A stretch of DNA of 64,000 nt, taken from contig CACZXH010000003.1 in the NCBI GenBank assembly GCA_902785065.1, forward strand, positions 1-64,000, given 5' to 3'. The translations under genes were made by a program, and so were the position numbers. Numbering within the stretch: the stretch's first letter is position 1; each line of letters starts with the position of its first letter. This document shows, piece by piece, positions 26,214 to 58,790 of this stretch. The stretch is from an uncultured Bacteroidia bacterium. GTDB lineage: Bacteria > Bacteroidota > Bacteroidia > Bacteroidales > UBA932. The notes below the pieces were generated by a model, which saw nothing but the letters and a program-made list of their open reading frames with translations, made no database searches and was not told where the DNA came from.

Positions 26214-26245
26214 TTTGTTGAAGCACAAAGGGATTACTATCTTTG
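26214..26245 (+). promoter_or_regulatory. Promoter of the first GH5 gene
   Basis: TTTG at 26214-26217, a 20-base spacer and TATCTTTG at 26238-26245 fit the consensus, with a leader of about 30 bases. Confidence 0.7.
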
Positions 26246-26281
26246 CAGCGATTGAGCATTACCTTTTTGAATCCTTGTCCT

Positions 26282-27807
26282 ATGCGATACTTGATACCTC
26301 TTCTGGCTCTTGCTCTCCTGGCCTTCTCCTGCAAGGGGCCTCAGGGCGCCCCCCCTGCGGAGGTACAGGGCCCGGTTCTCGTTTCCACGTTCCCTGCCGA
26401 CGGCACAGGCGGAATCGAAGGACCTTCCCTTTCCATCGTCTTTACTTTCGACCAGCATATCGTCTGCACATCCTCCGGCCTGGCCGGCATTTCGGTGGAC
26501 GAAGGCGCGTTCATCGACAAGGTCAGCCCTTCCGGAGCGGACCTGAAGGTCGTCGTGTCTGGTTTGGCCCGGGGCAAACAGTATACAGTCTCCCTTCCGG
26601 CCGGCTCGATCCGGGGGTTCAAGCGGGACCAGCCGGGGTCCGCGGCGATTACCTTCCGTTTCTCGACGAAGGAGCCTGACCCGGCGCCGGACCCGGGGGA
26701 ATGGGAATCGGCGGCCTCCGCTGTCCGGAACATGGGCGCGGGCTGGAATCTGGGGAACACGCTCGATACCAACAGCGGAGATATCACCAACATGTGGCTT
26801 GAGGCCTATTCCGACCGGTCACCGACCGCCTATGAAACCGGCTGGGGCCAGCCCGTCACCACCCGGGCGCTCATCCACATGTTCAAGGAAGCCGGCTTCA
26901 ACGCCATCCGCGTCCCCGTCACCTGGTATCCGCACATGGGCACGCTGGAAGTGAATGGCTTACGCTGGGACATGGACAAGTGGCTGGAATCCACGGACTA
27001 CCGCGTGGATCCGGCCTGGATGAACCGCGTCCGGGAAGTGGTCGACTACGTCATCGACGAAGGCATGTACTGCATCCTCAATGTCCATCACGACACGGGG
27101 GACCATGGCGAAAAAAAGAACGGCACCGCCTGGCTGGTGGCGGACACCGCTATGCCGCCCTCTGGCAGCAGATTGCCGAGACCTTCAAGGACTACGGAGA
27201 CCATCTGCTCTTCGAGTCCTACAACGAAATGCTGGACTCCTATGATTCCTGGTGTTTCGCGTCCTTTGCCACCCCGGGCAATTATGACGCGACCGTGGCA
27301 GCCGCCGCCTACGCGGGCATCAACAACTACGCGAGGACCTTCGTGGAGACCGTGCGCGCCACCGGCGGTAACAACGCAGCGCGGAACCTGGTTGTAAACA
27401 CGTACGGCGCCTGCAGCGGCGCCGGAACCTGGAGCCCGCATTTGCAGGAACCTCTCACCCGGTTCGACCTCCCGGAAGCCCCCGGCCATATCGCCGTGCA
27501 GGTCCACAGCTACTGGCATGCCGACAAGTTCGACGAGGAGAAGGCGGACATCGACCGCCAGTTCGCGGACCTGGACCGGTACCTGGTCCGTCGCCTGGGC
27601 GTGCCGGTGATCATCGGGGAGTGGGGCGGCGGATCCAACGAGGATTCCGCGGCGATGATCCGCTTCGCCGGCTACTTCTCGCAGAAGGCAAAGGACGCCG
27701 GCATGGCGGCCCTGTATTGGATGTGCCTGTCGGACGGGGCGGACCGCGCCGTCCCCGCCTGGACGACGCCCGGAGTGAAGGACGCCATTTTGAAAGCCTA
27801 TCGCTGA
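26282..27807 (+). pseudogene. GH5 endo-glycanase lipoprotein with Ig-like domain, frameshifted
   Basis: The start at 26282 gives a lipobox (LLAFSC, Cys17). An Ig-like domain (about 25-135) precedes a GH5 catalytic domain with GWNLGNTLD, RVPVTWYPH and NVHHD in the first frame. Near 27145-27150 the reading moves to another frame that continues RYAALWQQIAETFKDYGDHL, the acid/base motif ESYNEM and the nucleophile motif IIGEWGG. Comparison with the intact GH5 at 39454 shows about 13-15 residues missing at the join, so this is a deletion of roughly 40 bases with a frameshift. GH5_4-like members cut beta-1,4-glucan, xyloglucan or glucomannan. It lies just upstream of the mannan operon. Confidence 0.82.
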
Positions 27808-27884
27808 ATCCATTGGTTTTCAAGCCGTTGGAATCCTGCTTTGTGGGATTTGGTAAAATAGTATCGGTATTGGGTTTTATTGTA

Positions 27885-27916
27885 TTTGTCCGCAGGGCGT
27901 GCTTCGTGTAAATTTG
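27885..27916 (+). promoter_or_regulatory. Promoter of the forward mannan operon
   Basis: TTTG at 27885-27888, a 20-base spacer and TAAATTTG at 27909-27916 fit the consensus, about 27 bases before the first mannanase gene. No clear operator dyad is seen beside it. Confidence 0.75.
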
Positions 27917-27942: not shown

Positions 27943-29238
27943 ATGATTAAGCAGACACTGAAATCGACCCTGTTCGCAGGAATCGCCTTCCTGGCCGCCG
28001 CTTGCGGCCCCCAATCCGAGCCTGCGGCCTTCGTCCGGGTCGAAAACGGCCAGTTTATCCGTAATGGCCGTTCATATTCGTACATTGGAACCAACTTCTG
28101 GTATGGCCCTATCCTGGCCTCGGAGGGCATGGGTGGAGATTATGACCGCCTCGTCCGGGAGCTGGATACCCTCCAGGAACTGGGTATCGACAACCTTCGG
28201 GTTTTGGTAGGCGGGGATGGCCCCGACGGCGTTTTCTCCCGTATCGAGCCTACCCTGCAGAAAGAGCCCGGGGTGTATAATGATACTATTTTGACTGGAT
28301 TAGACCGTTTTTTGGTCGAACTCGGGAAACGGGACATGCAGGCCGTCCTGTATCTGAACAATTCCTGGGAATGGTCCGGCGGCTACGGCATGTACCTGGA
28401 ATGGGCCGGCGCTGGAAAAGCGCTGATCCCGCTTGTGGACGGATATACGCCGTTCATGCGCCAGATGGCGCAGTTCTCGACGAATGAGAAGGCTCAGGAA
28501 TTGTTCTTCAACCATTTGAAAACCATTGTCGGCCGTACCAATTCCGTGACTGGGAAACCTTACAGTGAGGATCCCGCGATTTTCTCCTGGCAGATCGGCA
28601 ACGAACCCCGTTGTTTCTCCGACGACCCGGCTGTCCGCGAGGGCTTCATCGGCTGGCTGATGGAAGCCGCCCGCCTCATCAAGGAAATCGACCCGAACCA
28701 TATGGTCTCTACCGGCAATGAAGGCCTGATGGGCTGCGAGAACGATCCGGCGCTGCTGGAAGCTGTCGCCGCCATCCCGGACATCGATTACATGACCATC
28801 CATATCTGGCCCTACAACTGGAGCTGGGCACGGGCGGACAGCCTCGTGGAGGATCTCCCGGGCGCATGCGCGAAAACGGATGAATATATCGCCACCCATC
28901 TGGCCCTGGCGCAGATATACGGGCAGCCCGTCGTCGTGGAGGAGTTCGGTTTCCCCCGGGACGGTTTCTCGCCTGAGCGCACGGCCACGACCGAGGGCCG
29001 TGACACGTACTACCACCACCTCTTCTCCAAGGTGGGTAAAGAGATCGCCGGGGCGAATTTCTGGGGCTGGAGTGGTTACGCACGCCCGCGGCACACCCAG
29101 TGGGAACGGGGGGACGATTATGCCGGCGACCCGGCCCAGGAGGCCCAGGGCCTGAACGGCGTATACGCCGACGATACGACCGTGGAAATCATCAAACAAT
29201 CCATAACCAACATCAACCAAAAACCAAACAACCAGTAG
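27943..29238 (+). CDS. GH5 subfamily 7-type endo-beta-1,4-mannanase lipoprotein
   Basis: The protein has 431 residues from the ATG at 27943, with a lipobox (LAAAC, Cys21). The (beta/alpha)8 catalytic domain covers the rest. GTNFWYG and NLRVLVGGDG near the start, QIGNEPRCF with acid/base Glu221, HIWPYNWSW, and VVEEFGFPRDG with nucleophile Glu334 match GH5_7 mannanases. These cut internal beta-1,4-mannosidic bonds in mannan, glucomannan and galactomannan. It is first in the forward operon, one base before the SusC gene. The lipid anchor suggests the outer membrane, but which face is not known. Confidence 0.85.
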   Translation: MIKQTLKSTLFAGIAFLAAACGPQSEPAAFVRVENGQFIRNGRSYSYIGTNFWYGPILASEGMGGDYDRLVRELDTLQELGIDNLRVLVGGDGPDGVFSRIEPTLQKEPGVYNDTILTGLDRFLVELGKRDMQAVLYLNNSWEWSGGYGMYLEWAGAGKALIPLVDGYTPFMRQMAQFSTNEKAQELFFNHLKTIVGRTNSVTGKPYSEDPAIFSWQIGNEPRCFSDDPAVREGFIGWLMEAARLIKEIDPNHMVSTGNEGLMGCENDPALLEAVAAIPDIDYMTIHIWPYNWSWARADSLVEDLPGACAKTDEYIATHLALAQIYGQPVVVEEFGFPRDGFSPERTATTEGRDTYYHHLFSKVGKEIAGANFWGWSGYARPRHTQWERGDDYAGDPAQEAQGLNGVYADDTTVEIIKQSITNINQKPNNQ

Positions 29239-29239
29239 C

Positions 29240-32200
29240 ATGAAAAACAAGCTGTTAGCCTTCATGCTTGCGCTCCTTGCGACCGCGGGGACCCTGTTCG
29301 CCCAGAACAGGGTCATGGGTACCGTCACCGACGATATCGGCCCGGTCATCGGCGCCAGCGTGATGGAAAAAGGCACCCAGAACGGTGCCGTCACAGACCT
29401 GGATGGAAACTACGTGATCACGGTGAAGCCCGGAGCGACGCTCGTGTTCTCTTCCATCGGCTATGCAACGCAGGAGATCGAGGTGGGCAGCCAGTCCCGC
29501 ATCAATGTCCTCCTGAAAGAAGACACCGAATTCCTCGACGAAGTCGTCGTCGTGGGTTACGGTACCATGAAGCGGAGCGACCTCTCCGGCGCTTCCGTAT
29601 CCATGAAGGAAGAAGACCTCAAGGGGTCCGTCATCACCAACCTGGACCAGTCCCTGCAGGGCCGCGCCGCCGGTGTTTCCGCGGTGCAGACCTCCGGTGC
29701 GCCGGGTTCCTCCTCCTCCATCCGTGTCCGTGGCCAGGCGACTGTCAATGCCAACGCGGAACCGCTGTACGTCATCGACGGCGTGATCGTCCAGGGCGGC
29801 GGCAATTCCGGCGGTGACTTCGGTCTCGGCGGCCTCGGAAACGGCAAGATTTCCACTATCTCCCCGCTGGCGACCATCAATCCCGCCGATATCGTGTCCA
29901 TGGAAATCCTCAAGGACGCGTCCGCTACGGCGATCTACGGCGCCCAGGGCGCGAACGGTGTCGTCCTCATCACCACCAAGCACGGCAAGGCCGGCGATGC
30001 GAAGTTCTCCTATGACGGCATGTTCGCGGTCTCCCGCCAGAACAGCCGCATCGACATGATGGACCTCCGTCAGTTCGCCGAATACTACAACGACCTCGCC
30101 GGTCAGGGTCTTGTGGACCACAACGGCTACTATGCCGATCCCTCCATCCTCGGCAAGGGTACCAACTGGCAGGATGAGGTGTTCCGCACCGCCCTGCAGC
30201 ACCAGCACCAGGTCAGCGCCCAGGGCGGCTCCGAGAAGGTGCAGTACTACATTTCCGGTTCCTACATGGACCAGCAGGGTACCATCATCGGTTCCAACTT
30301 CGACCGTCTCTCCTTCCGCACCAACGTGGATGCGCAGCTCAAGGACTGGTTTAAGCTGGGCGTGAACGCCACTTACGCCATCACCAACGACGATATCAAG
30401 CTCGCCGATGGTCAGGAAGGTGTCATCTTCTACTCCCTGAGCACGTTGCCTGATATCCCGGTCTATGACCTGGATGGCAACTATTCCACGACGGTCCGTG
30501 AGGGTTATACCTCCGCCAACCCCGTGGCCCTGGCCATGCTGGACCAGAACCTCCTCAAGCGCCAGAAACTCACCGGCAACGTCTATGCGGACATCACGCC
30601 CCTCAAGCATTTCACCTGGCGCAGCGAGGTCGGTTTCGACGTCTCCAACTCCGAGGCCACGACCTATAAGCCGATGGTGAACCTCGGCGGCTGGCAGCGC
30701 GGCAACAACTCCATGAGCACCCAGCGCAACGCCAGCACCTACTGGTCCCTCAAGAACTACCTGACCTACGCCAATTCCTTCGGCAAGCACAGCCTGACGG
30801 CCATGGTGGGCCAGGAAGCCTGGGAGTCCCGCTGGAACTACCTCAGCGCCAGCAACACCGGTCTTCCTTCGGATGATATCCACAACATTTCGCTCGCCAC
30901 CGGCAACCCGACCGTGGGCTCCGGTTTCGGCTCCTCCGCGATGGCGTCCTTCTTCACCCGTGAGACCTACAACTATGACGACCGCTACCTGGCGACCTAC
31001 ACCTTCCGCCGGGACGGTTCCTCCAACTTCGGCCCGGATAACCGGTGGGCGAATTTCCATTCCTTCGCGGCTTCCTGGCGCTTCACCAACGAGGCTTTCC
31101 TGAAGGATTTCTCCCACTCCATCGGCCTGGACAACGGTAAGATCCGCGTGGGCTGGGGCCAGACGGGTAACGCCAACATCGGCGGCGGCGCCTGGGAGTC
31201 CGGCATGAGAAAGATGCCGACCGGCCTCGGCGACAGCCAGCGTCCGGCGAACATTTCCAACACCGGTATCCACTGGGAGAAGCAGGTGCAGACGAACCTC
31301 GGTTTCGACCTGAACTTCCTGAAGAACCGAATCAACCTGACGGTGGACCTCTACAAGAAGGTCTCTTCCGACATGCTGATGTCCCTGACCCTCCCGTCCT
31401 ACATGGGTACGCAGGGCAACGGATCCTCCGCCCTCGCGGCGCCGAAGGGCAATTTCGGCACCATCGAGAACAAGGGTCTGGAAATCACCCTGGACACGCA
31501 TCCGATCGACAAGAAGAACTTCAGCTGGGACAGCAATTTCCAGATTTCCTTCAACCGGAACAAGCTCGTCGCCCTGGACGGTTCCGCCAACGCACAGCTC
31601 GTGGGCTACGGCCAGTGGAGCGACATCGTTTCCGTGACCGAGGTCGGCCAGCCCCTGTACAACTTCTACGGCTATGTCGTGGAAGGCGTGTACGAGTCCC
31701 TGGAGGACATCCAGAATTCCCCGAAGGCGGAGAAATATCCGGCTGATGGTGTGTTCAACCGGGCCACCACCGTCTGGGTCGGCGATATCAAGTTCAAGGA
31801 TATCAACGGTGACAACGTCATCAACGAGCACGACCAGACCAGCATCGGGTCCCCGCTTCCGAAGTTCACCTTCGGCTGGACGAACTCCTTCCGTTACAAG
31901 AATGTGGACCTGTCCGTGTTCCTGAACGGTTCCTATGGCAACAAGGTCCTCAACTACAACATGATGGGCCAGGGCTACAACGGCCTCGTGCACATGAACA
32001 GCACCTGGACGAACCAGCACGTGTCCATCCAGGACCGCGCCCGGCTCGCCGTCGTGGACGCCGAGAAGACATATGACGATGGCTCCATGTGGTATGACGA
32101 TATCACCAACGTGAAGGTCGCCAATCCCGGCACCAAGACTCCGCGTCCGACCATCCAGGACCCGAACGACAATGACCGTCTCAGCACCCGCTACATCGAG

Positions 32201-32455
32201 GACGGCTCCTACCTCCGCGTCAAGAACATCACCCTGGGCTACACGTTCCCGAAGAACGTGCTCCAGAAGGCGAAGATCGACAACGTGCGTGTCTACATGA
32301 ACATCCAGAACCTCTACACCTTCACGAAGTATACCGGTTTCGATCCGGAAGTGGGCGCTTCCACCCAGGATTCCTCCGGTATGGCCTTCGGTGTGGACAA
32401 TGGACGTTATCCTTCCCCGATGACCTGTTCCTTCGGCCTGAATATCACTTTCTAA
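29240..32455 (+). CDS. SusC-like TonB-dependent outer-membrane transporter
   Basis: The protein has 1071 residues. A signal peptide (ending LFAQ) is followed by a carboxypeptidase-regulatory-like domain (about 24-105), the FLDEVVVVGYGTMKRSDLSGA junction typical of SusC proteins, a plug domain (about 115-240) with IDGVIVQGG and EILKDASATAIYGAQGANGVVLITTKHG, and a 22-strand-type barrel ending in NITF. It imports mannooligosaccharides together with the SusD partner encoded 18 bases downstream, using TonB energy. The substrate is inferred from neighbours. It shares little detail with the second SusC at 53072, so the two pairs are not a recent duplication. Confidence 0.93.
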   Translation: MKNKLLAFMLALLATAGTLFAQNRVMGTVTDDIGPVIGASVMEKGTQNGAVTDLDGNYVITVKPGATLVFSSIGYATQEIEVGSQSRINVLLKEDTEFLDEVVVVGYGTMKRSDLSGASVSMKEEDLKGSVITNLDQSLQGRAAGVSAVQTSGAPGSSSSIRVRGQATVNANAEPLYVIDGVIVQGGGNSGGDFGLGGLGNGKISTISPLATINPADIVSMEILKDASATAIYGAQGANGVVLITTKHGKAGDAKFSYDGMFAVSRQNSRIDMMDLRQFAEYYNDLAGQGLVDHNGYYADPSILGKGTNWQDEVFRTALQHQHQVSAQGGSEKVQYYISGSYMDQQGTIIGSNFDRLSFRTNVDAQLKDWFKLGVNATYAITNDDIKLADGQEGVIFYSLSTLPDIPVYDLDGNYSTTVREGYTSANPVALAMLDQNLLKRQKLTGNVYADITPLKHFTWRSEVGFDVSNSEATTYKPMVNLGGWQRGNNSMSTQRNASTYWSLKNYLTYANSFGKHSLTAMVGQEAWESRWNYLSASNTGLPSDDIHNISLATGNPTVGSGFGSSAMASFFTRETYNYDDRYLATYTFRRDGSSNFGPDNRWANFHSFAASWRFTNEAFLKDFSHSIGLDNGKIRVGWGQTGNANIGGGAWESGMRKMPTGLGDSQRPANISNTGIHWEKQVQTNLGFDLNFLKNRINLTVDLYKKVSSDMLMSLTLPSYMGTQGNGSSALAAPKGNFGTIENKGLEITLDTHPIDKKNFSWDSNFQISFNRNKLVALDGSANAQLVGYGQWSDIVSVTEVGQPLYNFYGYVVEGVYESLEDIQNSPKAEKYPADGVFNRATTVWVGDIKFKDINGDNVINEHDQTSIGSPLPKFTFGWTNSFRYKNVDLSVFLNGSYGNKVLNYNMMGQGYNGLVHMNSTWTNQHVSIQDRARLAVVDAEKTYDDGSMWYDDITNVKVANPGTKTPRPTIQDPNDNDRLSTRYIEDGSYLRVKNITLGYTFPKNVLQKAKIDNVRVYMNIQNLYTFTKYTGFDPEVGASTQDSSGMAFGVDNGRYPSPMTCSFGLNITF

Positions 32456-32473
32456 ACGATGGAGGATCAGCAA

Positions 32474-34255
32474 ATGAAAAACACATTGAAATATATCATC
32501 CTCGCCGCCGCCGTCGTTTTCGGCGCTGCTTCCTGTGAGAAGTTCCTGGACCGTCCGTCCGAGGATTCCTACACGACTGCCGACTTCTACAAGAATGACG
32601 CGCAAGTCGAGCAGGGCATCAACTATCTCTACAATTCCCCGTGGTACGACATCATCCGCTTCTACATCTACGGTTCCGAAACGATGTGCGGCAATGTCTA
32701 CCAGGGCCAGAACGCCTATTCCACCCTGACCGTGAACGGCACGGACCAGGACCTGAAGAACATGGCGTATTCCCTGTGGGCCGTGAACGCACAGTGCAAC
32801 ACGGTGATCAACAACATCCGGAATGCGGAGACCACCGCTTCCGAGGCTGTCAAGAACCGCTGCATCGGCGAAGCCCTCGCCTGGAAGGCGATGACCTATT
32901 TCTTCCTGGTGCGCACGTTCGGAGACGTCCCGATTATCCATGACAACACCGAGACGATCAAGGAGGCCAGCTACAATGAAGTGTACAAGGTCCAGAAGGC
33001 GGATGTCTACGAGTACATCATCCTGACCCTCGAAAAGGCGATGGAACTCCTTCCGAAGAACGCGTACATCGGCAAGCTCAACCGCATCGACTATTATGCC
33101 GCCGAGGCGCTGCTCGCCAAGGTCTATCTGACCAAGGCCGGCGTGGAAGGCTCCCTGAGCTCGGGCGACCTCGCCGCCGCGGCGCGGTATGCGAAGGACG
33201 TCATCGACAATTCCGGCCGTACCCTGACTCCGAAGTACTCCGACATTTTCCGGATGACGCCGGACAAGTTCCAGCAGACCGGGGAGGAACTCTTCACCTG
33301 GCATTGGCAGTGCAAGCAGGAAGCCTGGACTTCCCAGAACTCCATCCAGTGCGATGTGGGTCTCGTCGGATTCGATGAGAACGGCAACCTCTGGGGCGAC
33401 TGGAAGGGTCCCTCCATCGACCTGCAGGAGGCTTTCGGCGTGTCGGCGACGGACGACCCGACCAAGCGGGCCAACCTTGACGACCGCCGGCAGGCGACCA
33501 TGATGCTGTTCGGCGACCAGTACGACTACTTCTGGACCGACATGGGCGGTTTCGATTTCTACCGCTTCTTCTATGACGACAGCTATGCTCCCGGCGGCCT
33601 GACGGCCAACGCTTCCAACAAGTCCTTCGGCTGCGCCACCGGCGCCAACTATTGCAAGCACCTCTACGGAGATGTCGCCGACCATGTGGCGGCCTTCGGC
33701 TATCCGTCCTTCGGCATGTACAACCAGCTCCCGACGCACATCCTGCGCCTGGGCGATATCTACCTCGTCTATGCCGAGGCCGCTTTCCTGACGGGCAACA
33801 CGTCCGACGCCCTCCTTTATGTGAACAAGATCCGTGAGCGCGCCCATGCTGAACCGCTCGCTTCCGTCACTTACGAGGACATCTGGAAGGAACGCCGGCT
33901 GGAGCTCGCCCTCGAAGGCGACCGCTGGTATGACTACGTGCGCCGTTCCTACTATGACGTGAACGCCTGCATCGCCGACCTGAAGGCCCAGCACCGTTCT
34001 TTGTGGGCCGGTGACCTGAACGGGGTCTACAAGAACTTCGTGACGGACGCGCAGGGCAATTATGTCGGCCCAGGCGCCCACGAGTGGGATGCCAGCGCCA
34101 TCACCTACGATCCTTCCGAGGACCTGACCGATGTGAAGCCCTCCATGTTCACGATCCCGTTCCCGACGGAAGACGTCGTGATGAACCCGAACGTGGCTTC
34201 CACCGCCGAAGCGGTCCATGTGGACGTCCGCGAGACCTATTCCTATGACTTTTAA
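32474..34255 (+). CDS. SusD-like surface glycan-binding lipoprotein
   Basis: The protein has 593 residues from the ATG at 32474, 8 bases after GGAGGA. The lipobox is FGAASC (Cys21), followed by EKFLDRPSEDSYTT, the typical SusD N-terminus. TPR-like helices with RCIGEALAWKAMTYFFLVRTFGDVP and a C-terminal ERRLELALEGDRWYDYVR confirm the RagB/SusD family. It caps the SusC barrel and captures oligosaccharides at the surface. It pairs with the SusC gene directly upstream. Confidence 0.93.
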   Translation: MKNTLKYIILAAAVVFGAASCEKFLDRPSEDSYTTADFYKNDAQVEQGINYLYNSPWYDIIRFYIYGSETMCGNVYQGQNAYSTLTVNGTDQDLKNMAYSLWAVNAQCNTVINNIRNAETTASEAVKNRCIGEALAWKAMTYFFLVRTFGDVPIIHDNTETIKEASYNEVYKVQKADVYEYIILTLEKAMELLPKNAYIGKLNRIDYYAAEALLAKVYLTKAGVEGSLSSGDLAAAARYAKDVIDNSGRTLTPKYSDIFRMTPDKFQQTGEELFTWHWQCKQEAWTSQNSIQCDVGLVGFDENGNLWGDWKGPSIDLQEAFGVSATDDPTKRANLDDRRQATMMLFGDQYDYFWTDMGGFDFYRFFYDDSYAPGGLTANASNKSFGCATGANYCKHLYGDVADHVAAFGYPSFGMYNQLPTHILRLGDIYLVYAEAAFLTGNTSDALLYVNKIRERAHAEPLASVTYEDIWKERRLELALEGDRWYDYVRRSYYDVNACIADLKAQHRSLWAGDLNGVYKNFVTDAQGNYVGPGAHEWDASAITYDPSEDLTDVKPSMFTIPFPTEDVVMNPNVASTAEAVHVDVRETYSYDF

Positions 34256-34266
34256 TCCGTGACACG

Positions 34267-35568
34267 ATGAAAGCGATAACCAAATATACAGGCATCATCC
34301 TGGGTGTGGTTTTGGCCGCTTCCTGTACCAATCTGGATTATCCGGACCGCTACAAGGAGACGACCGGCGTTCCTACCGTCCACTTCGTCCGCTATGCGGA
34401 CCGGGACATCGCCATCACCCAGGCCAATATGGAAGAACTCGTGTGCGTGGTCGGTGACAACCTGACCAGCGTCCACGACATCTACTTCAACGACCAGGCC
34501 GCTGTCCTGAACTCGAGCTATATGACCCCGCACACCATCGTGGTCGCGGTGCCCAAGAACATGCCCAAGGAGCAGACGGACAAAATGTACCTGATTACCC
34601 GCGACAGTTCCGTCGTGGCCTACGACTTCAAGGTCCTCCCGCCGGCACCGAAGATTACCGGCATGTCCAACGAGTGGGCGAAGGCGGGCGAGACCGTCAG
34701 CGTCTACGGTTCCTACCTCTTCCCGCCGATCACCGTCGAATTCCCGGGCGCGGACCCGGTCGAGGTGACCTCCGGTGACGGGGATGCCGTGAGCGTGGTG
34801 GTTCCTGCCGGCGCGCAGCCGGGCAAGATCAAGGTCAACAACGCTTCCGGCACGGCCCAGTCCGTGTTCATGTACAAGGATTCCCGCGGCATGCTGTTCG
34901 ACTTCGACGGCGTGACCGGCCTGGACAACCACGGCTGGAACGGCCACAGTTCCCAGGACGATGACGGCACGGGCGTGAGCGGCCGCTTCCTGCAGTTCGG
35001 CGACGGCGCCACGCCGCTCACCGGCGACTGGGAGGAAGCCCACTTCTCCTTCGTCTACTGGCCGGGTTCCTGGAACGATCCCGAGAACTATCAGGACGGC
35101 CCGAATGGAATCCGTCTGACCGACCTCGCCGACTTTACCGACTGGCAGAACATGGCGCTCAAGTTCGAGATCTGCGTTCCCGCCTCCAACCCCTGGACCG
35201 GTACGCCGATGCAGATTGTGATGGCCGGTGTCGACAAGGTTACCTTCGGCGGTGCCGTGACGGATATCTACGGCAACCAGTGCGCCGGTGCCAACAACAC
35301 CTACATGTCCTCCAATGAGACGCCCCGCGGACTGTATCGTCCTTGGGCTGCGACCGGCAGCTTCGACACGGGCGGCAAGTGGGTCACCGCGACCATCCCG
35401 CTGGCGGAATTCACCTACGGTTGGGAAGGAACTCCTTCCTCCGGTACCCTGAATGCCGACAGCTTCTCCAGCCTGTGGCTCTTCATCTGCGCCGCCGGCG
35501 AAAAGCCTGCGGACTCCTGCACGCCGATCATCAAGATCGACAACATCCGTGCTGTCCCTTACAAATAA
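34267..35568 (+). CDS. Surface glycan-binding lipoprotein with IPT/TIG domain
   Basis: The protein has 433 residues with a lipobox (LAASC, Cys20). IPT/TIG-like beta sandwiches cover about 40-215 (for example PKITGMSNEWAKAGETVSVYGSYL). A C-terminal beta-rich region (about 220-433) is rich in Trp and Gly (GWNGHSSQDDDG, YWPGSWNDPENY), which suits sugar binding. This is the usual SusE/F-position surface glycan-binding protein, directly after SusD. It probably holds mannan at the cell surface. No catalytic motif is seen. Confidence 0.82.
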   Translation: MKAITKYTGIILGVVLAASCTNLDYPDRYKETTGVPTVHFVRYADRDIAITQANMEELVCVVGDNLTSVHDIYFNDQAAVLNSSYMTPHTIVVAVPKNMPKEQTDKMYLITRDSSVVAYDFKVLPPAPKITGMSNEWAKAGETVSVYGSYLFPPITVEFPGADPVEVTSGDGDAVSVVVPAGAQPGKIKVNNASGTAQSVFMYKDSRGMLFDFDGVTGLDNHGWNGHSSQDDDGTGVSGRFLQFGDGATPLTGDWEEAHFSFVYWPGSWNDPENYQDGPNGIRLTDLADFTDWQNMALKFEICVPASNPWTGTPMQIVMAGVDKVTFGGAVTDIYGNQCAGANNTYMSSNETPRGLYRPWAATGSFDTGGKWVTATIPLAEFTYGWEGTPSSGTLNADSFSSLWLFICAAGEKPADSCTPIIKIDNIRAVPYK

Positions 35569-35586
35569 TGAGAGGAGATTGAGATT

Positions 35587-37986: not shown

Positions 37987-38001
37987 CGACTCACTTTCAA
38001 T

Positions 38002-38027: not shown

Positions 38028-38047
38028 GTTCCATTCAACACATAACT

Positions 38048-44691: not shown

Positions 44692-44697
44692 ACAACG

Positions 44698-51541: not shown

Positions 51542-53059
51542 TTACTTGATATTGGGGTTAAGGTCGGTCTCAATGGAGGGAATGGGATAGAAGAGAATAT
51601 CCGCCTCGTTGGTGATACCCTGCTCCTGGACAGCCTTGATGGTGTGCAGGTTGCCGGTACGGCGCAGGTCATAAGTGATATTACCCTCAAAGGCAAGTTC
51701 ATAGATGCGTTCCTTGATCACCGCCTGCCGGAAGGCCTCGGTGGAAAGCCCGGGCGTCAGTTCTCCCAGACCGGCGCGGGTCCGGATATGGTTCACCAGT
51801 TCGTAAGCCTTCTCCGTCGGGCCGGCCGCTTCCGCATACGTCAGTGCGATATCCGAGAAGCGGAGCAGATACGGCTTCGTGGAAGTCTTGTCGCCATTGA
51901 ACTGCGGGTCGATGAACTTGCGGCAGAACGGGTAGGAGAGCCCGCCTCCCGGATAGGATGCCGCGACGGAACCATCGGCCTTATACACCTCTTTCACGAT
52001 GAGCTGGTCCTTGCGGAGGTCACCCGTCTCGAACGAGTTGTAGAAGTCGATGTTGGTCTGGTACTCCGACCATCCGTCATGCGTGGGGATGAGCGTCCCA
52101 TTGTCGCCTTGCTTGAGGTAGACGGTACCGCCGGAAATGTAGGGGATGTACATCTTGGAGATCTTGGAGTACTGGCCCTCGTTTTCACCGGAGCGGTCCA
52201 TGCTCATGATGAAGATGTGCTCGGGACCGTCGGGATGGTCCACGTCATAGATGTGCAGCAGGTCGTCGTCAAAATGATAGGTGGTCTGTGAAGGGTTGTC
52301 CACCACGTCTCCGGCGTATTGGGCGGCCTTTGCATAGTAGTCGTTCACGTCGAAGGACATGTCCGAATACTGCGGAACGCCGTAGGCCTTGGCCGAAGCC
52401 AGATACAGGTAGCTCTTGGCGAGCAGGCTCTGCGCCGCCGCCTTGTCCACGCGTCCCGGCTCAGGTTTCGTGTAATACGGGAGGAGTTCAACGGCTTTCT
52501 CCAGGTCGTCGAAGACATATTTCCACATCTCATCCAGCGACGCGGGAAGACCGGCCTGCGTGTCGGCAAGCGTTGTCACGACATCCAGGTGGATCGGGAC
52601 CCGGCCGAAGTTCCTGGCCAGGTTGAAGTAGGAATAGGCCCGCATGAAATAGGCTTCGCCCGTGAACCGGTTGCGGAGGTTCTGGTCGATGTTCATGCCG
52701 GGGACATTCTTGATGACCGCATTGGCCCGGTTGATGGTGATGTAGGAGAACTTGAAGAAATTGCCCAGGGTGACGTTGCTTCTGAAGTTGTTCTGGCTCC
52801 AGGCGTCCAGGTCCTTGGTGGACGGGGTGGCATCCCCCTTGGGGTTCAGTTCATCCGTATTCATGCCGCCCAGGAAAACGATGGCGCGGGAATACTCGAT
52901 ATAGTTGATGGCGTCGTAGATGAACAGGGTGGAAGATTCCGCATCGGCTTCCGTCGTGTAGAAATTCTTGTCCGAATAGAAGCCGTAGGGTTTCTCCTCG
53001 AGCGAGCAGCCGGTAAAGAGCAGTGCTGCGAAAACGAATGCTGATATCTTGTTATTCAT
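51542..53059 (-). CDS. SusD-like surface glycan-binding lipoprotein
   Basis: The protein has 505 residues with a lipobox (LLFTGC, Cys18), followed by SLEEKPYGFYSDKNFYTTEAD. RFTGEAYFMRAYSYFNLARNFGRVPIH and the C-terminal VIKERIYELAFEGNITYDLRR confirm the RagB/SusD family. It pairs with the SusC gene 12 bases upstream. It is clearly different from the SusD at 32474 in length and sequence, so the two uptake systems probably favour different oligosaccharides. Confidence 0.93.
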   Translation of the reverse strand: MNNKISAFVFAALLFTGCSLEEKPYGFYSDKNFYTTEADAESSTLFIYDAINYIEYSRAIVFLGGMNTDELNPKGDATPSTKDLDAWSQNNFRSNVTLGNFFKFSYITINRANAVIKNVPGMNIDQNLRNRFTGEAYFMRAYSYFNLARNFGRVPIHLDVVTTLADTQAGLPASLDEMWKYVFDDLEKAVELLPYYTKPEPGRVDKAAAQSLLAKSYLYLASAKAYGVPQYSDMSFDVNDYYAKAAQYAGDVVDNPSQTTYHFDDDLLHIYDVDHPDGPEHIFIMSMDRSGENEGQYSKISKMYIPYISGGTVYLKQGDNGTLIPTHDGWSEYQTNIDFYNSFETGDLRKDQLIVKEVYKADGSVAASYPGGGLSYPFCRKFIDPQFNGDKTSTKPYLLRFSDIALTYAEAAGPTEKAYELVNHIRTRAGLGELTPGLSTEAFRQAVIKERIYELAFEGNITYDLRRTGNLHTIKAVQEQGITNEADILFYPIPSIETDLNPNIK

Positions 53060-53071: not shown

Positions 53072-56000
53072 TTAAAAGTTAAAGTCAATTCCGAAGGTCC
53101 ACTTTCTGAGGCGGGGATATCCACCGCTGTAAATACCCAGTGCACTTACTTCCGGGTCATAGCCCGTGAACTTGGTGAAGGTGTAGAGATTGTCGATGTT
53201 CAGGCTGAAACGGATGCTGTCCATGAAGCTTAGGCTCTTGCGGAGCGGGAGCGTGTAGCCCAGGGAGACGGTCTGGATCCGGATAAAGGAACCATTCTCG
53301 ACCCACCAGTCTGAGAACTTGACCTGCCGGTCGTCCCGGAGCTTGGGATAGTCGTTGGTCCGGTTGTCGGTGGTCCAGCGGAGCGGGTTGTTGGAAGGCT
53401 GTCCGAAACGCTGGAGGTTGATCACGTCATTCCCGAACACGCCGTTGAAGAAAATGCTGAAATCCAGGTTCTTGTAGGCTACGTCGAAACTGAGCGAAGC
53501 GAGGAGGTCGGGATTGGGGTCGCCGATGATGCAGCGGTCGTTCTCGTCCACGATCTCGGCATTGTCGCCGTTGTATTCGTTCACATACTTGAACTCACCG
53601 GGTTCGGCATCGTCTCCGGTCAGGCCGGCGGTGAGACCATCTTCCAGGCTCTGGACGATTCCGTTCACCTTGTAACCGTAGAACACATACATCGGCTGGC
53701 CGATGGCCAGGATATTGGTATACCCGCGGAACTGCGGCTGGCTGTTTCCGTAGTACTCGTACTGCATGCCGGTGCGTGCATCGGTCATCAGACCGGCTTC
53801 AATGGCATTTCCGAGGCTCAGGACCTTGTTGCGGTTGTGGGTAAGGATCATCGTGGCTCCGACTTTCCAGTCCTTGTTGGAGAACAGGATGCCTTCCAGG
53901 GTGGCCTCGATGCCCCTGTTCTGGATGACACCGTCGTTCACCCACATGCGGTCGTAGCCGGAGGACGGGGCGATGTTGCGTTCCCGCAGCAGACCGTCCG
54001 TCACTTTGTTGTACCAGTCGACTGTGAGGTTCAGCCGGTTGCCGAACAAGCTCAGGTCCATGCCGAAGTCCAGCTGGGAAGTGGTCTCCCATTTGAGGTC
54101 GGTGTTGGCAATGCCGCTCCAGACGGCGTAAATGCCGCCCTCTCCGGTATAGCCGGACTGATAGCCGGGACCGATGGCCGTCTGCCAGGCACCGTTATAA
54201 TAGTATTTGTGCTGGCCGAAGCGGCTCAGGGTCTGGTAGGGAGAGATGCCCTGGTTGCCGGAGATACCGTAGGAAGCACGGAATTTCAGGACATCCAGCT
54301 GACGCACATCTTTCAGGAAGCTTTCATTGTGGGCGTTCCAGCTGACGGCGCCAGAGGGGAAGAAGGCCCATTTGTTCCCGGAACCGAACTTGGAGGAGCC
54401 ATCGGCACGGGCCGTGAATGTGAAGAGATAACGATCGTCATAACCGTAGTTCAGACGCATCAGGCCGGACACGAGCGTGCTCTCGGACAGACCGTTGGAA
54501 ATCCGGTAATGCTCGGGATCACCGGCCTGGAGGTTCTCGTTGCCCAGGGTCTCGTTGACGAATCCGACGCCGGTCAGGCTGGACGAGCGGGAGCGGTAGT
54601 GCTCGTAGGAATAACCGAGCATCGTGGTCAGGTGGTGCTTCTTGGCGAAGATCTTGTCGAAGGTGCCGTATACATCGGCCACCATATTGTCGTCTTTCCA
54701 GTTGTTGATCTGACCGTAGCCGTTGTTGAAGGCTCCCGTCTCGGAGTAGACGTCCGGATTGTAGATGTCCTGGATGCTTTCGCCGTGCTTGTAGTTGAAC
54801 TGGCCGGTCAGGGTGAAGGCCGGGAACATCTTCCATTCCATTCCGGCATTGGCGATGACGTCGGTCCCTTCGGTCTTGTTGGTGGAAAGCTCTTTCAGCG
54901 CGATCGGGTGGTAGTAGTCGCTGGCGCTGTACAGCCAGTAATTGCCTTCTTCATCGTAAACGGGGAAAATGGGATTCCGGTTGTAGGAGCGTCCGGGATT
55001 GTAATTCCGGTTGTTGTGGGTAATGTTCGCACCCATCTTCAGGATGAGGTTCTCGAAGATTTTGTGGTCTACGGAGAACTTGCCTCCGAACTTGTCATAC
55101 CAGTCGTCCACGAAGACGCCGTTGTTCCGGAAGTAGTTGGCACTGGCTATGAACTGGGTCTTGTCGTTGGAACTGCGCACCTGTACGGTCGTGTTATTGG
55201 AAACCGGCAGTTTGCGCAGGACGAGATCTTCCCAGCGGGTGTTGGTGGTCCAGGTGGTCTGCAGTTCCTCAATGGACGGATAATAGATACCGTTGGCATT
55301 CACGGCGCCCACGTACTGCGGGACGAGACCGGCGTTAACCTTCGCCTCGTTCTGGGTGATGGCCATGAGGACGGGATCGTACCACAGGTTGAGCTTGGAC
55401 GTCATCTGCGAGAGGGTGGTCTGCTGGCGGACGCTGATGCTGGTCTGTCCGGCAGCGGCTTTGTTGGTCGTGATGAGGATGACGCCGTTGGCGCCGCGGG
55501 ATCCGTAGATGGCCGACGCGGAGGCATCCTTCAGGACTTCCATGGACACGATGTCCTGCGGATTGATCTGGGCGAGATTGCCGGCATCGCCGAAGGGGAA
55601 ACCGTCCACGACCAGGAGCGGCGCATTGGAGCCGTTCACGGAGGAATTACCCCGGACCCGGACCGTGGAGGCTGCACCCGGCTCCTGGGAGTTGTTGGTC
55701 ACCTGGACACCGGCCACGCGTCCCTGCATGAGGGACTCGATGGAGTGGGACGGTTTGACGATGAGTTCTTCGGGGTCGAGGGAGGCCACGGACCCCGTGA
55801 GGTCGCTTTTCTTCATGCGGCCATAACCGATGGCTACGGTTTCTTCCAGCATGAAGGAGGACTCGTTGAGGACAACGTTCACGACAGACCTGCCGTTGAC
55901 AGGAAGAGTAGCATCTTCGTAGCCAAGACAGCTCACCGAGAGTGTCGCATTGGCAGCCACGCCGTTAATGGACCAGGAGCCATCCTCGCCACTGACCGCA

Positions 56001-56167
56001 TACTTGTTCGTACCGGTGACGAGTACCGCAGCGCCGGCAACGGGTTTGCCGTTCTGGTCGCTGACCGTTCCGGATACCTTGGCTGCAGGCTGGGCATGGG
56101 CGGAGCCTGCCGCAAGGACCAGAATCGATGCGACTGCAAGGAGAAAACATGTAATTCTCTTTTTCAT
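53072..56167 (-). CDS. SusC-like TonB-dependent outer-membrane transporter
   Basis: The protein has 1031 residues. A signal peptide (ending AHAQ) is followed by a carboxypeptidase-regulatory-like domain (about 28-105), EETVAIGYGRMKKSDLTGSVASL, a plug with LLVVDGFPFGD and MEVLKDASASAIYGSRGANGVILITTNKA, and a barrel ending IDFNF. With the SusD gene downstream it imports oligosaccharides, with mannan fragments inferred from the operon. The codon usage and frame are intact over the whole length. Confidence 0.93.
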   Translation of the reverse strand: MKKRITCFLLAVASILVLAAGSAHAQPAAKVSGTVSDQNGKPVAGAAVLVTGTNKYAVSGEDGSWSINGVAANATLSVSCLGYEDATLPVNGRSVVNVVLNESSFMLEETVAIGYGRMKKSDLTGSVASLDPEELIVKPSHSIESLMQGRVAGVQVTNNSQEPGAASTVRVRGNSSVNGSNAPLLVVDGFPFGDAGNLAQINPQDIVSMEVLKDASASAIYGSRGANGVILITTNKAAAGQTSISVRQQTTLSQMTSKLNLWYDPVLMAITQNEAKVNAGLVPQYVGAVNANGIYYPSIEELQTTWTTNTRWEDLVLRKLPVSNNTTVQVRSSNDKTQFIASANYFRNNGVFVDDWYDKFGGKFSVDHKIFENLILKMGANITHNNRNYNPGRSYNRNPIFPVYDEEGNYWLYSASDYYHPIALKELSTNKTEGTDVIANAGMEWKMFPAFTLTGQFNYKHGESIQDIYNPDVYSETGAFNNGYGQINNWKDDNMVADVYGTFDKIFAKKHHLTTMLGYSYEHYRSRSSSLTGVGFVNETLGNENLQAGDPEHYRISNGLSESTLVSGLMRLNYGYDDRYLFTFTARADGSSKFGSGNKWAFFPSGAVSWNAHNESFLKDVRQLDVLKFRASYGISGNQGISPYQTLSRFGQHKYYYNGAWQTAIGPGYQSGYTGEGGIYAVWSGIANTDLKWETTSQLDFGMDLSLFGNRLNLTVDWYNKVTDGLLRERNIAPSSGYDRMWVNDGVIQNRGIEATLEGILFSNKDWKVGATMILTHNRNKVLSLGNAIEAGLMTDARTGMQYEYYGNSQPQFRGYTNILAIGQPMYVFYGYKVNGIVQSLEDGLTAGLTGDDAEPGEFKYVNEYNGDNAEIVDENDRCIIGDPNPDLLASLSFDVAYKNLDFSIFFNGVFGNDVINLQRFGQPSNNPLRWTTDNRTNDYPKLRDDRQVKFSDWWVENGSFIRIQTVSLGYTLPLRKSLSFMDSIRFSLNIDNLYTFTKFTGYDPEVSALGIYSGGYPRLRKWTFGIDFNF

Positions 56168-56175: not shown

Positions 56176-57180
56176 TTATTGGTTGGTCAAAAAGTCAAGC
56201 AAATTGTCGAGAGGACAGGTCGCAACGCCCACATATCGGTCGGCGCCGCCATAATAGACATAGAGGGTTCCGTCTTTCACGATATTCCCGGTCGGGAAGA
56301 CGCATCCCGGATAGAACCCCTCCCGTTCGAAGGGTAGTTCCGGCTCGAGGATGGGTTCCGGGGTGCGGGCCAGCACTTTCAGGGGATTGTCCCGGTCCAG
56401 CAGCATGGCCCAGACGGTGTAGTCTGCATGACCGCCGTCGGCCACCCCGTGATAGAGCACCAGGTAGCCGCGGTCCGTCAGAATGGGGGGCGTGCTGCCG
56501 CCGATTTTCTCCTCCTTGGTGCCGGGTCGGCCCTGGATGAGAAGATGGTCTTCAGCGCGCTCCCAGTTCAGCAGGTCGTCTGAGAACTTGAGCCAGATGG
56601 AAGGGAACTCCGTGGCATCGGTATGTTTGGGCCGGTGCAGCATGGCATACTTCCCGCCTATTTTCTGCGGGAACAGGATGACGTCCCGGTCGTCCTGGAC
56701 GGGGGAGGTGATCCGGCCCAAGCGCCTGAAATGGCGGAAGTCCCGGGTGCAGGCCAAGCCCGTGTTGCCCAAGTTCTCCCTCCAGGCAAGCGGCGCGAAT
56801 CCATCCGTGTCCGGTTTCCTTACTACGTCGTGCGGGAAGGTCCAGTAACGGCCAGGGGGCATGGGCCTGTACGCGTAGGTAATGTAGAAAGTGTCGCCGA
56901 ACTTGACGATACGTGCGTCTTCCACGCATCCGCTGTCCGGTCCGTCAGCACTGGGACAGAATACCGGTTCGTCACTGGCGCGCTCGAAATGGAATCCATC
57001 GGTGCTGGTGGCCAGCCCGAACCGGATCACATGGTCCTCGTCGTCGCCTGCGGCCCGGTACAGCATGTAGAAAACGCCGTTGTCCAGGATGACACCCGGA
57101 TTGCAGACGACCAGATTCTCCCACGGATGGGTGGGATGAGGTGAGAGAATGGGGTTTCCCCCGTAACGGAGCAGTTTCAT
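56176..57180 (-). CDS. Beta-1,4-mannooligosaccharide phosphorylase (GH130_2 type)
   Basis: The protein has 334 residues from the ATG at 57180 with no signal peptide, so it is cytoplasmic. Five-bladed propeller motifs include YGGNPILSP, RAAGDDEDHVIRFGLA, GCVEDARIVKFGDTFYITY with the probable proton donor Asp88, GRITSPVQDDRDVILFPQKIGGKYAMLHRP and GGSTPPILTDRGYL. The pattern suits GH130_2 enzymes that phosphorolyse beta-1,4-mannooligosaccharides to mannose 1-phosphate, rather than the mannosylglucose enzyme at 42159. It overlaps the symporter stop (TAATG). Confidence 0.83.
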   Translation of the reverse strand: MKLLRYGGNPILSPHPTHPWENLVVCNPGVILDNGVFYMLYRAAGDDEDHVIRFGLATSTDGFHFERASDEPVFCPSADGPDSGCVEDARIVKFGDTFYITYAYRPMPPGRYWTFPHDVVRKPDTDGFAPLAWRENLGNTGLACTRDFRHFRRLGRITSPVQDDRDVILFPQKIGGKYAMLHRPKHTDATEFPSIWLKFSDDLLNWERAEDHLLIQGRPGTKEEKIGGSTPPILTDRGYLVLYHGVADGGHADYTVWAMLLDRDNPLKVLARTPEPILEPELPFEREGFYPGCVFPTGNIVKDGTLYVYYGGADRYVGVATCPLDNLLDFLTNQ

Positions 57181-58760
57181 TATCTGAAAATGAATAAAAG
57201 GATTGCACTCAGCACAAGCAGCCCGCCGGCCATGACGCGGTAGTTCTTCCACCACTTCTCTTCCCGGAGTTCCCGCGTTTCAGCCTTGAAATCAGCACAG
57301 CTGAACGTGGTATTCTCCAGTTTTTCTGCGGCAGGCCGTTCCGTGGCGATACTGACCAGATAAATGACCAACATGCTGAAAACCAGCAGGATGGGGACGA
57401 TAAAAAGGAAATGCATGTCTCCAAAGATCTCGTGGCGCCAGAAAAGCAGCACCAGGGCGAGGGCGAGTCCGGACAGGAGGCCGGCGAAGGCCCCGCGTGC
57501 ATTGGTCCGTTTGACGAAAACGCCCATCAGGAAGGTGGCTACGATGGGAGGCGAAATATAGGACAGCATTTCCTGGTAATACTTCAGCAAGGAACCGAAC
57601 TTTTCGATGTTCGGCGCCCAGAGCGTAGCAATGACGATAATGACCAGGGCCGAAACCTTTCCGACCCGGACCAGCTTCTTCTGGTCGGCCTTCCTGTCGA
57701 TTTTGGCGTAGAAGTCCATGGTGAACAGGGTGGAGGCCGAATTGAGGATGGCGCTCAGGGTGGAGGTAAGGGCGGCGAGCATGGCCGACAGCATTAAGCC
57801 GAGCACCCCGGCCGGCATGAACCTCAGGACCATGGTCGGGTAGATCATATCGGGATTCTCTACACCGGGGAAGAAGTGCCTGGCCATGACGCCGGGGATA
57901 TTGAAAATGAACAAGGTGCAGAGGGTCAGGAAACCGGCCAGCATGACTCCGATCCGTCCCTGGTTCACGCTCTTGGCGCTGAGGACCCGTTGCACCAGCG
58001 TCTGGTTGTTCGCCCAGAAATAGATGCCCAGCACGGGCATTCCCACCAGCAATCCCAGCCACGGAGTGGAAGAATCGTTGAGGGGCCGGATGAGTCTGGC
58101 CGCGATGTCGCCGTTTTCCATCAGTCCGGCGAAGTATTCTCCACCACCTTTGACAAAGCAGATGACCATCATGACGATGGATCCCACCAGAAGTACCACG
58201 GCTTGGATCAGATCCGTGTTGATGGCGGCGGAAAGACCGCCCGGAATCGTGTAAGAGGCGGCGATGACGGCAAAGATCAGGACGAACACCCAGAGTTCCA
58301 CTTCCGGGAAGAGAAGCTTCAGGATGAGCGCGGCGGAGTAGAGGGCGCCAGCCGCATCGAGAAAAATGTTGCCGATGATACTGATGGCGGAAAAATAATA
58401 CCTCGACCGGCTGTCGAATCGTTTCTCCAGGAATTCAGGAATCGTGAAGATCTTGGACTTAATATATAAGGGAAGGAGAAATACCGCGAAAAAGACGAGG
58501 ACCCAGACGCCCGTCAGATTATAGTTGAATACGGCGATTCCTGTCGCGTAGGCATCTCCGGTCTGGCCGATGAGGGTGGTGCTGGAGATACTGGCGGCGA
58601 AGAGGGACAGGCCGATAATGAACCAGGGGGTACCTCTTCCTGCCAGGAAATACGAGCCGGCATTGGAACTTTTGCCGTTTTTCAGTCCCCACCAGATGAT
58701 GAAGACCAGGTATACGGCGATAATGACGATATCAATAATGCCTATTCCAGAGAATTCCAT
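57180..58760 (-). CDS. Sodium:solute symporter (SSS family), sugar importer
   Basis: The protein has 526 residues with 13-14 membrane helices. The N-terminal FIIWWGLKNGKSSNAGSYFLAGRGTPWFIIGLSLFAASISSTTLIG contains the hallmark SSS helix-1 sodium-binding region. IPGGLSAAINTDLIQ and MLAALTSTLSAILNSASTLFTMDFY are also typical of SGLT-like sugar carriers. It is the first gene of the reverse operon, coupled to GH130_2, so it probably imports mannooligosaccharides across the inner membrane. This gives the locus two unrelated importers. Confidence 0.9.
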   Translation of the reverse strand: MEFSGIGIIDIVIIAVYLVFIIWWGLKNGKSSNAGSYFLAGRGTPWFIIGLSLFAASISSTTLIGQTGDAYATGIAVFNYNLTGVWVLVFFAVFLLPLYIKSKIFTIPEFLEKRFDSRSRYYFSAISIIGNIFLDAAGALYSAALILKLLFPEVELWVFVLIFAVIAASYTIPGGLSAAINTDLIQAVVLLVGSIVMMVICFVKGGGEYFAGLMENGDIAARLIRPLNDSSTPWLGLLVGMPVLGIYFWANNQTLVQRVLSAKSVNQGRIGVMLAGFLTLCTLFIFNIPGVMARHFFPGVENPDMIYPTMVLRFMPAGVLGLMLSAMLAALTSTLSAILNSASTLFTMDFYAKIDRKADQKKLVRVGKVSALVIIVIATLWAPNIEKFGSLLKYYQEMLSYISPPIVATFLMGVFVKRTNARGAFAGLLSGLALALVLLFWRHEIFGDMHFLFIVPILLVFSMLVIYLVSIATERPAAEKLENTTFSCADFKAETRELREEKWWKNYRVMAGGLLVLSAILLFIFR

Positions 58761-58782
58761 AGTAACGATTGCTGGTTCAGTG

Positions 58783-58790
58783 CAAAGATA
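58783..58790 (-). promoter_or_regulatory. TATCTTTG box of the reverse mannan operon
   Basis: The minus-strand TATCTTTG lies 22 bases before the symporter ATG. No TTTG is found at the ideal distance, which would fit an activator-dependent promoter. Confidence 0.5.

Follow-up and report, generated by a model that had tools for sequence, protein, structure and literature searches.

Two convergent loci for mannan use

The stretch of DNA analysed here, hereafter the window, comprises 64 kb at the start of a contig of 117,374 bases (CACZXH010000003.1) from the 2.74 Mb, 95% complete draft genome of an uncultured Bacteroidales bacterium. It contains two operons that meet head-on: a forward operon (F, 27943-44691, + strand), running from a GH5_7-like gene to a GPH-family importer gene, and a reverse operon (R, 58760-44698, - strand), running from an SSS-family importer gene to a SASA-type esterase gene. 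In Pfam and NCBIfam searches each has a susC gene adjoining a susD gene together with glycan-active enzymes, the hallmark of a polysaccharide utilization locus (PUL). Only 6 bp separate the last stop codons of F and R (44691-44698), and the side-by-side convergent arrangement described in the original prediction, which was made from the sequence alone, was borne out. The sole terminator match between the operons is weak, lies inside the GPH gene and is no better than those in shuffled sequences; given the short gap without a clear terminator, the two transcripts may overlap. We propose that F and R, whose promoters share an operator, may act as a single beta-mannan regulon. G- and L-numbers below label compared genomes and loci; the sample comprised 300 genomes of the genus and a 199-genome sample of the family.

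The forward operon is a glucomannan-type PUL of a kind that is common in the genus. Its GH5_7-like gene (27943..29238, +) encodes a beta-mannosidase/mannanase-type lipoprotein with a lipobox, the two best solved relatives of which are PDB 1uuq (Man5A, 8.6e-95) and 4lyp (annotated as an exo-beta-1,4-mannosidase, 8.7e-64). This gene is second in the array, not first as had been thought; the first place belongs to GH5x (26282..27807, +), a Big_5 and GH5 (cellulase) gene split over two frames, with PF00150 on both pieces. Homologues of GH5x have a single open frame in G338 (528 aa), G201 (497 aa) and G420 (515 aa), and the break reflects either decay or a draft-assembly error. Downstream of the GH5_7-like gene, on the same strand, lie SusC_F (29240..32455; TIGR04056, 912.7 bits), SusD_F (32459..34255; PF07980 and PF14322) and two lipoproteins, both of which had been called IPT proteins. 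The first (SGBP1_F, 34267..35568) is instead an SGBP-B surface glycan-binding lipoprotein that carries PF18329 (6.7e-41), a xyloglucan-binding-domain family, and matches PbSGBP-B (PDB 6d2y, 1.6e-95), which presumably belongs to a mannan PUL of Prevotella bryantii; the comparison with that species concerns this protein only. The second, of 799 aa (35587..37986), does have TIG repeats (PF01833) and gave no PDB sequence match at E 0.01. Four enzymes and the importer follow. GH26A (38048..39457) combines a BACON domain (PF13004) with PF02156 (3.9e-54) and both catalytic Glu motifs, and the next BACON protein (39454..41046; PF00150, 1.6e-49; PDB 6wqy, 2jep, 3zmr and 6xsu) is, as judged from its endoglucanase and xyloglucanase relatives, a GH5_4-like enzyme and not a typical mannanase. 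After GH26B (41052..42152; PF02156, 6.4e-41) comes a GH130_1 protein (42159..43319), whose close homology to a characterized mannosylglucose phosphorylase (PDB 3was, 1e-208) and Tyr-Asp at the subfamily-diagnostic position point to the same activity. The GPH-family importer (43351..44691) exceeds the TIGR00792 cut-off.

Read from its promoter on the - strand, the reverse operon encodes the SSS-family importer (57180..58760; PF00474, 5.8e-76), a GH130 enzyme (56176..57180), SusC_R (53072..56167; TIGR04056, 760.7 bits), SusD_R (51542..53059; PF07980 and PF14322), a lipoprotein termed SGBP_R (49920..51539), GH26D (48742..49920; PDB 4zxo, 4e-62; CjMan26C, 3e-51), GH26C (47576..48745; PF02156, 8.8e-36), an unclassified clan GH-A-like enzyme of 477 aa with a lipobox, here called GHA (46146..47579), and the SASA-type carbohydrate esterase (44698..46149; PF03629, 7e-17; PDB 9h4u, 3.7e-83, and 7kmm). 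GH26C and GH26D are 66% identical, a level that marks them as a tandem duplication within R. For SGBP_R no family reached the Pfam cut-off, no PDB sequence matched and no confident full-length fold match was obtained; it matches a piece of about 95 residues of a levan-utilisome chain. It is conserved, with homologues in many cassettes that can be aligned over only about 320 residues. Overall, the SusC/D, GH26, GH130, GPH, SSS and esterase genes were roughly as first described, whereas several labels were wrong.

Tandem duplication of one PUL is rejected, as the original prediction had also concluded, by cross-operon identities of 27-32% (SusC 32%, SusD 30% over the best segment, GH130 27.5%). 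Its stronger statement, that matching slots are filled by unrelated or diverged proteins, is sound for SusC, SusD and GH130, and the surface lipoproteins of F and R gave no mutual BLAST match; GH26B and GH26C/GH26D are diverged homologues, 28-31% identical over nearly their full length.

A shared operator and a probable single AraC regulator

Upstream of the GH5_7-like gene and the SSS gene alike lies the 11-mer AAAATAGTATC, with 54 bp from its start to the -7 box. The forward operator-promoter (27855..27916, +) reads AAAATAGTATC ... TAAATTTG, ending in the -7 box, and the reverse one (58783..58844, -) reads AAAATAGTATC ... TATCTTTG. When sequences of similar composition were simulated, a match of 11 bases arose in 0.5% of trials on the same strand and in 1.2% on either strand. 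Exact AAAATAGTATC has three copies in the genome, all inside the window, compared with one for the reversed control. The third copy (28282-28292, -) lies within the GH5_7-like gene, 427 bp from the promoter copy, with its bases unchanged in four relatives, and may represent a second operator or merely codon conservation. When the layout is written as a composite pattern of AAANAGTAY, 44 bp and TAnnTTTG (AAANAGTAY-N44-TANNTTTG), the 2.74 Mb genome holds exactly two matches, the F and R promoters, and the reversed control none. The shared operator expected of a single regulon is thus found at both promoters.

The same spacing recurs among relatives. Forward-type promoters and their AraC neighbours were read at the best-scoring 30 out of 104 GH5_7 places; AGTAY precedes TAnnTTTG by exactly 49 bp in 23 of the 27 distinct promoters (22 of 26 when that of the window is excluded). 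For the reverse type the count is 26 of 33 distinct promoters, none being that of the window and with those of SSS identity below 58% left out (mostly Flavobacteriia, in which SSS is not the first gene). At other spacings AGTAY averaged 0.08 (forward type) and 0.03 (reverse type); the strict site is missing at 4/27 and 7/33 promoters, respectively. Across the 300 genus genomes the composite pattern matched 103 times in 80 genomes; 39 of these matches lie upstream of a GH5_7 gene at a distance of no more than 200 bp, where 0.0016 would be expected, and nine lie upstream of a GHA gene on the same contig. Five genomes (that of the window, G214, G253, G336 and G480), as read from the match places, have the strict site at both promoters.

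A regulator gene overlooked in the earlier gene list, AraC_R (58862..59713, +; PF12833, 4e-22), is oriented divergently from SSS. An open reading frame at 58838-60064 (-) that seemed conserved beside SSS was rejected, since it is the antisense of this gene. Homologues of AraC_R with 74-83% identity are found in L141-L144, each a locus of about 3.8 kb that also has an SSS gene and the operator, and in 14 of 14 genomes reached through loci of the GHA scan described below the best AraC_R homologue shares a locus of about 3.8 kb with SSS, with strict operator spacing in 13. The forward operon type usually has its own regulator: in 25 of the 30 best-scoring forward loci an AraC_F gene lies beside GH5_7. 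The window is among the five without, and GH5x occupies the spot where relatives have AraC_F. Searching the whole genome with AraC_F from G420 (E 1e-10) retrieved only AraC_R, at 35% identity. Identity between AraC_R and 27 AraC_F proteins averages 26% for the N-terminal domain and 46% for the DNA-binding domain, whose helix-turn-helix segments are nearly identical; against 15 other AraC_R proteins the values are 50% and 65%. Among relatives, forward-type loci L163 and L164 (G331 and G330) have no AraC gene in the 1.5 kb flank and no exact operator. L185 (G441) represents, after the window, a second genome in which hallmark genes of both cassettes and the operator are present with no AraC gene in the GH5_7 flank, possibly an independent loss of the forward regulator.

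Because both PUL types carry the same operator, cross-regulation is expected where they occur together. Since the forward operon's own AraC gene is gone from its usual place, and only AraC_R was found in this genome, AraC_R most likely drives both operons, which predicts their co-induction.

The original prediction had instead read F and R as two separately tuned and induced systems, for example one for plain mannan or glucomannan and one for acetylated mannan. Independently regulated PULs of this kind would agree with the low identity of the SusC and SusD pairs, with the unmatched surface lipoproteins and with the differing ligand domains of the AraC families (26%); moreover, the GH5_4 and mannosylglucose phosphorylase types occur in F and not in R, and R has the SASA esterase. 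SusCD_F and SusCD_R may differ in substrate. The identical, genome-unique operator layout at both promoters and the missing forward AraC speak against separate induction, as does the precedent of Segatella copri, in which the GH5_7 of PUL 8 is reported, in the accessible part of the paper, to be co-induced with the adjacent PUL 7 on glucomannan (PMC12704710). Acetylation also proved a weak dividing line. A SASA gene stands beside the R-type cassette in just 12 of the 87 loci searched, ten of the 12 being close relatives, and distant SASA homologues (36-37%) occur near F in relatives without a GHA match, such as G264 and G201. A further esterase domain is encoded away from F and R, on contig C4, by a large open reading frame (L091:7751-12685) that joins GH2-like and AXE1 domains, the latter of which we take to be CE7. 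For these reasons, two independently regulated PULs for different mannans seem to us an unlikely description of the locus.

The large reading frame on C4 is part of a cluster (L091:7751-19527) with two GH26 genes, a GH35/GH42-like protein and a 1020-aa protein in which a GlcNAc 2-epimerase-family domain is followed by an extra glycosidase-like C-terminal half; no SusCD pair was seen among the scanned open reading frames. With another GH26 gene on contig C33, this cluster broadens the mannan capacity of the genome, and the picture of just two mannan systems was incomplete. The whole-genome pattern search placed no composite operator at the C4 cluster or the C33 GH26 gene.

The reverse GH130 enzyme and GHA

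A Tyr beside the catalytic Asp is typical of GH130_1 and GH130_2, and a Glu of GH130_NC, according to the accessible text of two studies (PMC4599007, PMC4264767). The reverse enzyme has Glu87-Asp88 in place of Tyr-Asp, and Glu is found in all 66 aligned R-type sequences, that of the window included. It is therefore assigned, under the published Tyr/Glu rule, to GH130_NC, and the earlier GH130_2 label is dropped because Glu replaces the Tyr that is strictly conserved in GH130_1 and GH130_2. The accessible text also reports that characterized GH130_NC enzymes act on beta-1,2-mannosides, Teth514_1788 and Teth514_1789 as phosphorylases and BT3780 and BACOVA_03624 as hydrolases (PMC4599007, PMC4264767). 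By homology, the reverse enzyme is probably a mannoside phosphorylase.

These relationships raise the possibility that R targets, in place of plant beta-1,4-mannan, another mannose glycan with beta-1,2 linkages among its bonds, such as one from fungi or bacteria. Besides the invariant Glu, the best PDB match of the reverse GH130 is a 1,2-beta-oligomannan phosphorylase (9fj8, 4.9e-55). Its K173 is conserved in 62 of 66 sequences, with Phe in its place in the GH130_1 protein; it may correspond to Lys199 of BT3780, which the accessible text gives as specific for beta-1,2 linkages (PMC4264767, PMC4599007). Growth of B. cellulosilyticus WH2 on mannan, moreover, is ascribed in one paper to a single PUL, PUL32, with GH130_1, which would bear on R if that strain carries an R-type cassette. 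On the other hand, GH26D is nearest to 4zxo and CjMan26C, the latter described in the accessible literature as an exo-mannobiohydrolase, and both the recurrent siting of the R-type module beside F and the shared operator indicate beta-mannan. We judge a beta-1,2-linked target for R improbable.

GHA escaped assignment to any known family within the scope of Pfam and the PDB, CAZy lying outside that scope. No Pfam family passed its cut-off (best PF17189, E 0.029, 15 bits against a cut-off of 22), and a PDB sequence search up to E 1 returned two unrelated proteins and no glycosidase. The GHA alignment drew on 36 of the 79 loci kept, and a separate alignment on 25 of 65 non-window loci. N162-E163-P164 and E271 are invariant in 37 sequences, and the sequence thus has the two candidate catalytic Glu residues, with the acid/base after Asn, of clan GH-A. 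In the AlphaFold model (mean pLDDT 93) the top 50 Foldseek matches were mainly an Acidobacterium beta-glucuronidase and GH30-type xylanases (query TM 0.57-0.67, 12-18% identity); we take the former to be a GH79 enzyme. No sequence match to GH30 models passed the cut-off, and the Foldseek comparison recovered the (beta/alpha)8 barrel plus beta-sandwich fold of that family. The clan label of the original prediction accordingly stands on the invariant residues and the predicted fold, with no Pfam cut-off passed, and GHA is best described as a clan GH-A-like enzyme with a GH30-like predicted fold.

Genomic setting and distribution

F is flanked by genes for a tadA-like deaminase and a TSCPD protein, tRNA-Gln and alr, and dnaK lies at the far end, beyond R. 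The contents of this interval differ among relatives. The alr and dnaK products of G338 match those of the window at 97% and 99% identity, and there the GPH-dnaK interval is filled by some 25 kb of different PUL genes; between alr and dnaK, GH5x, GH26B and GPH are present and SusCD_F and R are both missing. The genes to the right of GPH also differ from the window in G264 and G201. In G420, G480 and G406, genes for AraC, SSS, GH130, GHA, an SGBP-like protein and GH26 lie downstream of GPH, all except AraC co-directional with F; in G406 the arrangement is read over a contig break that interrupts GPH. The modules of these three genomes have another orientation than R of the window and are more diverged in sequence. 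The site between tadA and dnaK thus appears to be a variable PUL site at which an R-type module was put beside F at least twice, in differing arrangements.

Such variability would suit chance neighbours at a PUL hotspot. On this reading R, functionally unconnected to F, was inserted into the GPH-dnaK interval, the operators resemble each other because the AraC families share an ancestor, and F is now otherwise controlled or constitutive. The different gene content next to GPH in G338, G201 and G264 is in line with this, as are the lower GC content of R (0.576, compared with 0.600 for F; the AraC_R gene has 0.535) and the rarity of GHA and GH130_1 in the same genome of the family sample (2 of 199, with GHA in 8 and GH130_1 in 34). 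Against it stand the recurrence of a more diverged R-type module beside F, in another orientation, in G420, G480 and G406, and the retention of the forward operator at exact spacing despite the loss of its own AraC gene. We therefore give little credence to mere adjacency.

The R cassette is widely distributed in Bacteroidota by itself, mostly without forward genes nearby. A scan of species genomes for GHA found 104 relatives in Bacteroidales and Flavobacteriia, of which the best 79 distinct loci were kept. Within the fetched flanks, many of them cut by contig ends, R-type GH130 was present at 65/79 loci, GH26 at 58/79, SusC_R-like genes at 53/79 and SSS at 51/79; GH130_1 and GPH stood beside GHA in two of the 79 (L060 and L061), to which the contig-edge GPH fragment of G406 (L062) may be added. 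Among the 300 genus genomes, GHA occurs in 19 and GH130_1 in 141, and GH130_1 is present in 15 of the 19 GHA-bearing genomes vs 126 of the 281 others (Fisher p 0.004), counts that were entered by hand under differing E-value cut-offs and uneven genome completeness.

Comparison with described systems

The closest parallel is the PUL 7/PUL 8 pair of S. copri, adjacent mannan PULs with GH26, GH5_4, GH5_7 and GH130, as described in the accessible text (PMC12704710). There, GH5_7 and the remaining mannan genes are divided over two PULs and no R-type cassette is described; the main text of that paper, as far as accessible, does not mention AraC (PMC12704710). In B. ovatus and B. xylanisolvens, non-orthologous beta-mannan loci (PUL-A and PUL-B) exist, both in some strains, and partial deletion (bacova_03400-03403) of a second GH26 PUL of B. 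ovatus ATCC 8483, bacova_03386-03406, which may or may not be PUL-B, left growth on two tested mannans unaffected, according to the accessible text; unlike F and R, these PULs occupy separate genomic locations, and the main one has a hybrid two-component system (HTCS) regulator and GH36 (PMC8845570, PMC5217682). Muricauda MAR_2010_75 resembles the present locus in having a mannan-induced unit that combines several GH26 with GH130, an esterase and an AraC-type regulator, and differs in being a single locus with GH27 and GH5_26, nothing GHA-like being named in the accessible text (PMC9860051). A regulatory analogue is provided by the HTCS_Man paralogues of B. thetaiotaomicron, which are described in the accessible text as recognizing similar DNA motifs at separate mannan loci; these are hybrid systems for alpha-mannans with direct-repeat motifs, whereas the proteins considered here are stand-alone AraC regulators (PMC3878776).

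Adjacent S. copri mannan PULs with GH5_7 co-induction, and coexisting non-orthologous Bacteroides mannan PULs, are thus already in print. In the searchable full-text literature, as far as accessible and with subscription papers and CAZy outside its scope, we found neither a shared AraC operator for beta-mannan PULs nor a GHA-like family, and no description of the R-type cassette with its SSS, GH130_NC, SusCD, unrelated SGBP, GH26 and new clan GH-A family.

A proposed single regulon from two PULs

We favour, with a probability of roughly 0.6, the view that F and R are complementary halves of one beta-mannan/glucomannan regulon and not separately tuned systems. AraC_R would activate both operons through the common operator. 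In the forward half, GH26 and GH5_4-like enzymes would cleave the backbone, SusCD_F would take in oligosaccharides to be trimmed in the envelope by GH5_7 and GH26B, and GPH together with GH130_1 would turn mannosyl-glucose into mannose-1-phosphate. In the reverse half, the GH26 tandem pair together with GHA, GH30-like in fold, would yield short mannosides for import by SusCD_R, and SSS with GH130_NC would process a second disaccharide. Labour may thus be divided, with F serving glucomannan via mannosyl-glucose and R another mannoside via SSS and GH130_NC, in a regulon that would have been assembled in the variable PUL interval bounded by tadA and dnaK.

Several observations weigh against this view. 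The composite pattern was drawn up after the two promoters of the window had been compared, so that the outside test consists of the promoters of relatives. Of the 102 genomes of the genus that have a GH5_7 match, only 39 show the strict site next to it and 63 lack it there; the composite pattern also matches in 17 of the 192 genus genomes that carry neither gene, and its reversed control gave 25 matches over the 300 genomes by hand count. The operator likeness may reflect mere relatedness of the two AraC families, and G201 retains the operator without an adjacent AraC gene or a GHA match. In a draft that is 95% complete, a forward AraC gene could sit on a missing contig. With regard to substrate, the reverse GH130 is of a type with characterized members active on beta-1,2-mannosides, a poor fit to plant mannan. 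Furthermore, in connection with growth on plant mannans the accessible part of a paper on B. cellulosilyticus DSM 14838 names just one other locus plus a few genes outside it and mentions no R-type PUL, though a record of that strain carries one (L052). In S. copri, co-induction of the second PUL is reported, in the accessible text, for its GH5_7 only (PMC12704710).

A broader idea, which we put forward as speculative and rather doubtful, is that the AraC protein of a widespread R cassette reads the same operator as that of a quite different glucomannan PUL, so that unrelated PULs fuse into a regulon by landing together; in this genome one of the two regulators would already have taken over from its counterpart. 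PUL pairs are commonly read as separate, substrate-specific systems. The operator evidence predicts, by contrast, that two PULs of different ancestry are run as one, with one sensor lost. The cassette supplies GHA, conserved yet below every Pfam cut-off and unmatched by any related sequence in the PDB, as well as a GH130_NC in a GH26 setting, and its enzymes may point to a new kind of mannoside linkage as target. If the two PULs are indeed run as one, a shared operator would help to explain which PULs can join at a hotspot, and operators, besides enzyme lists, should enter the prediction of PUL substrates.

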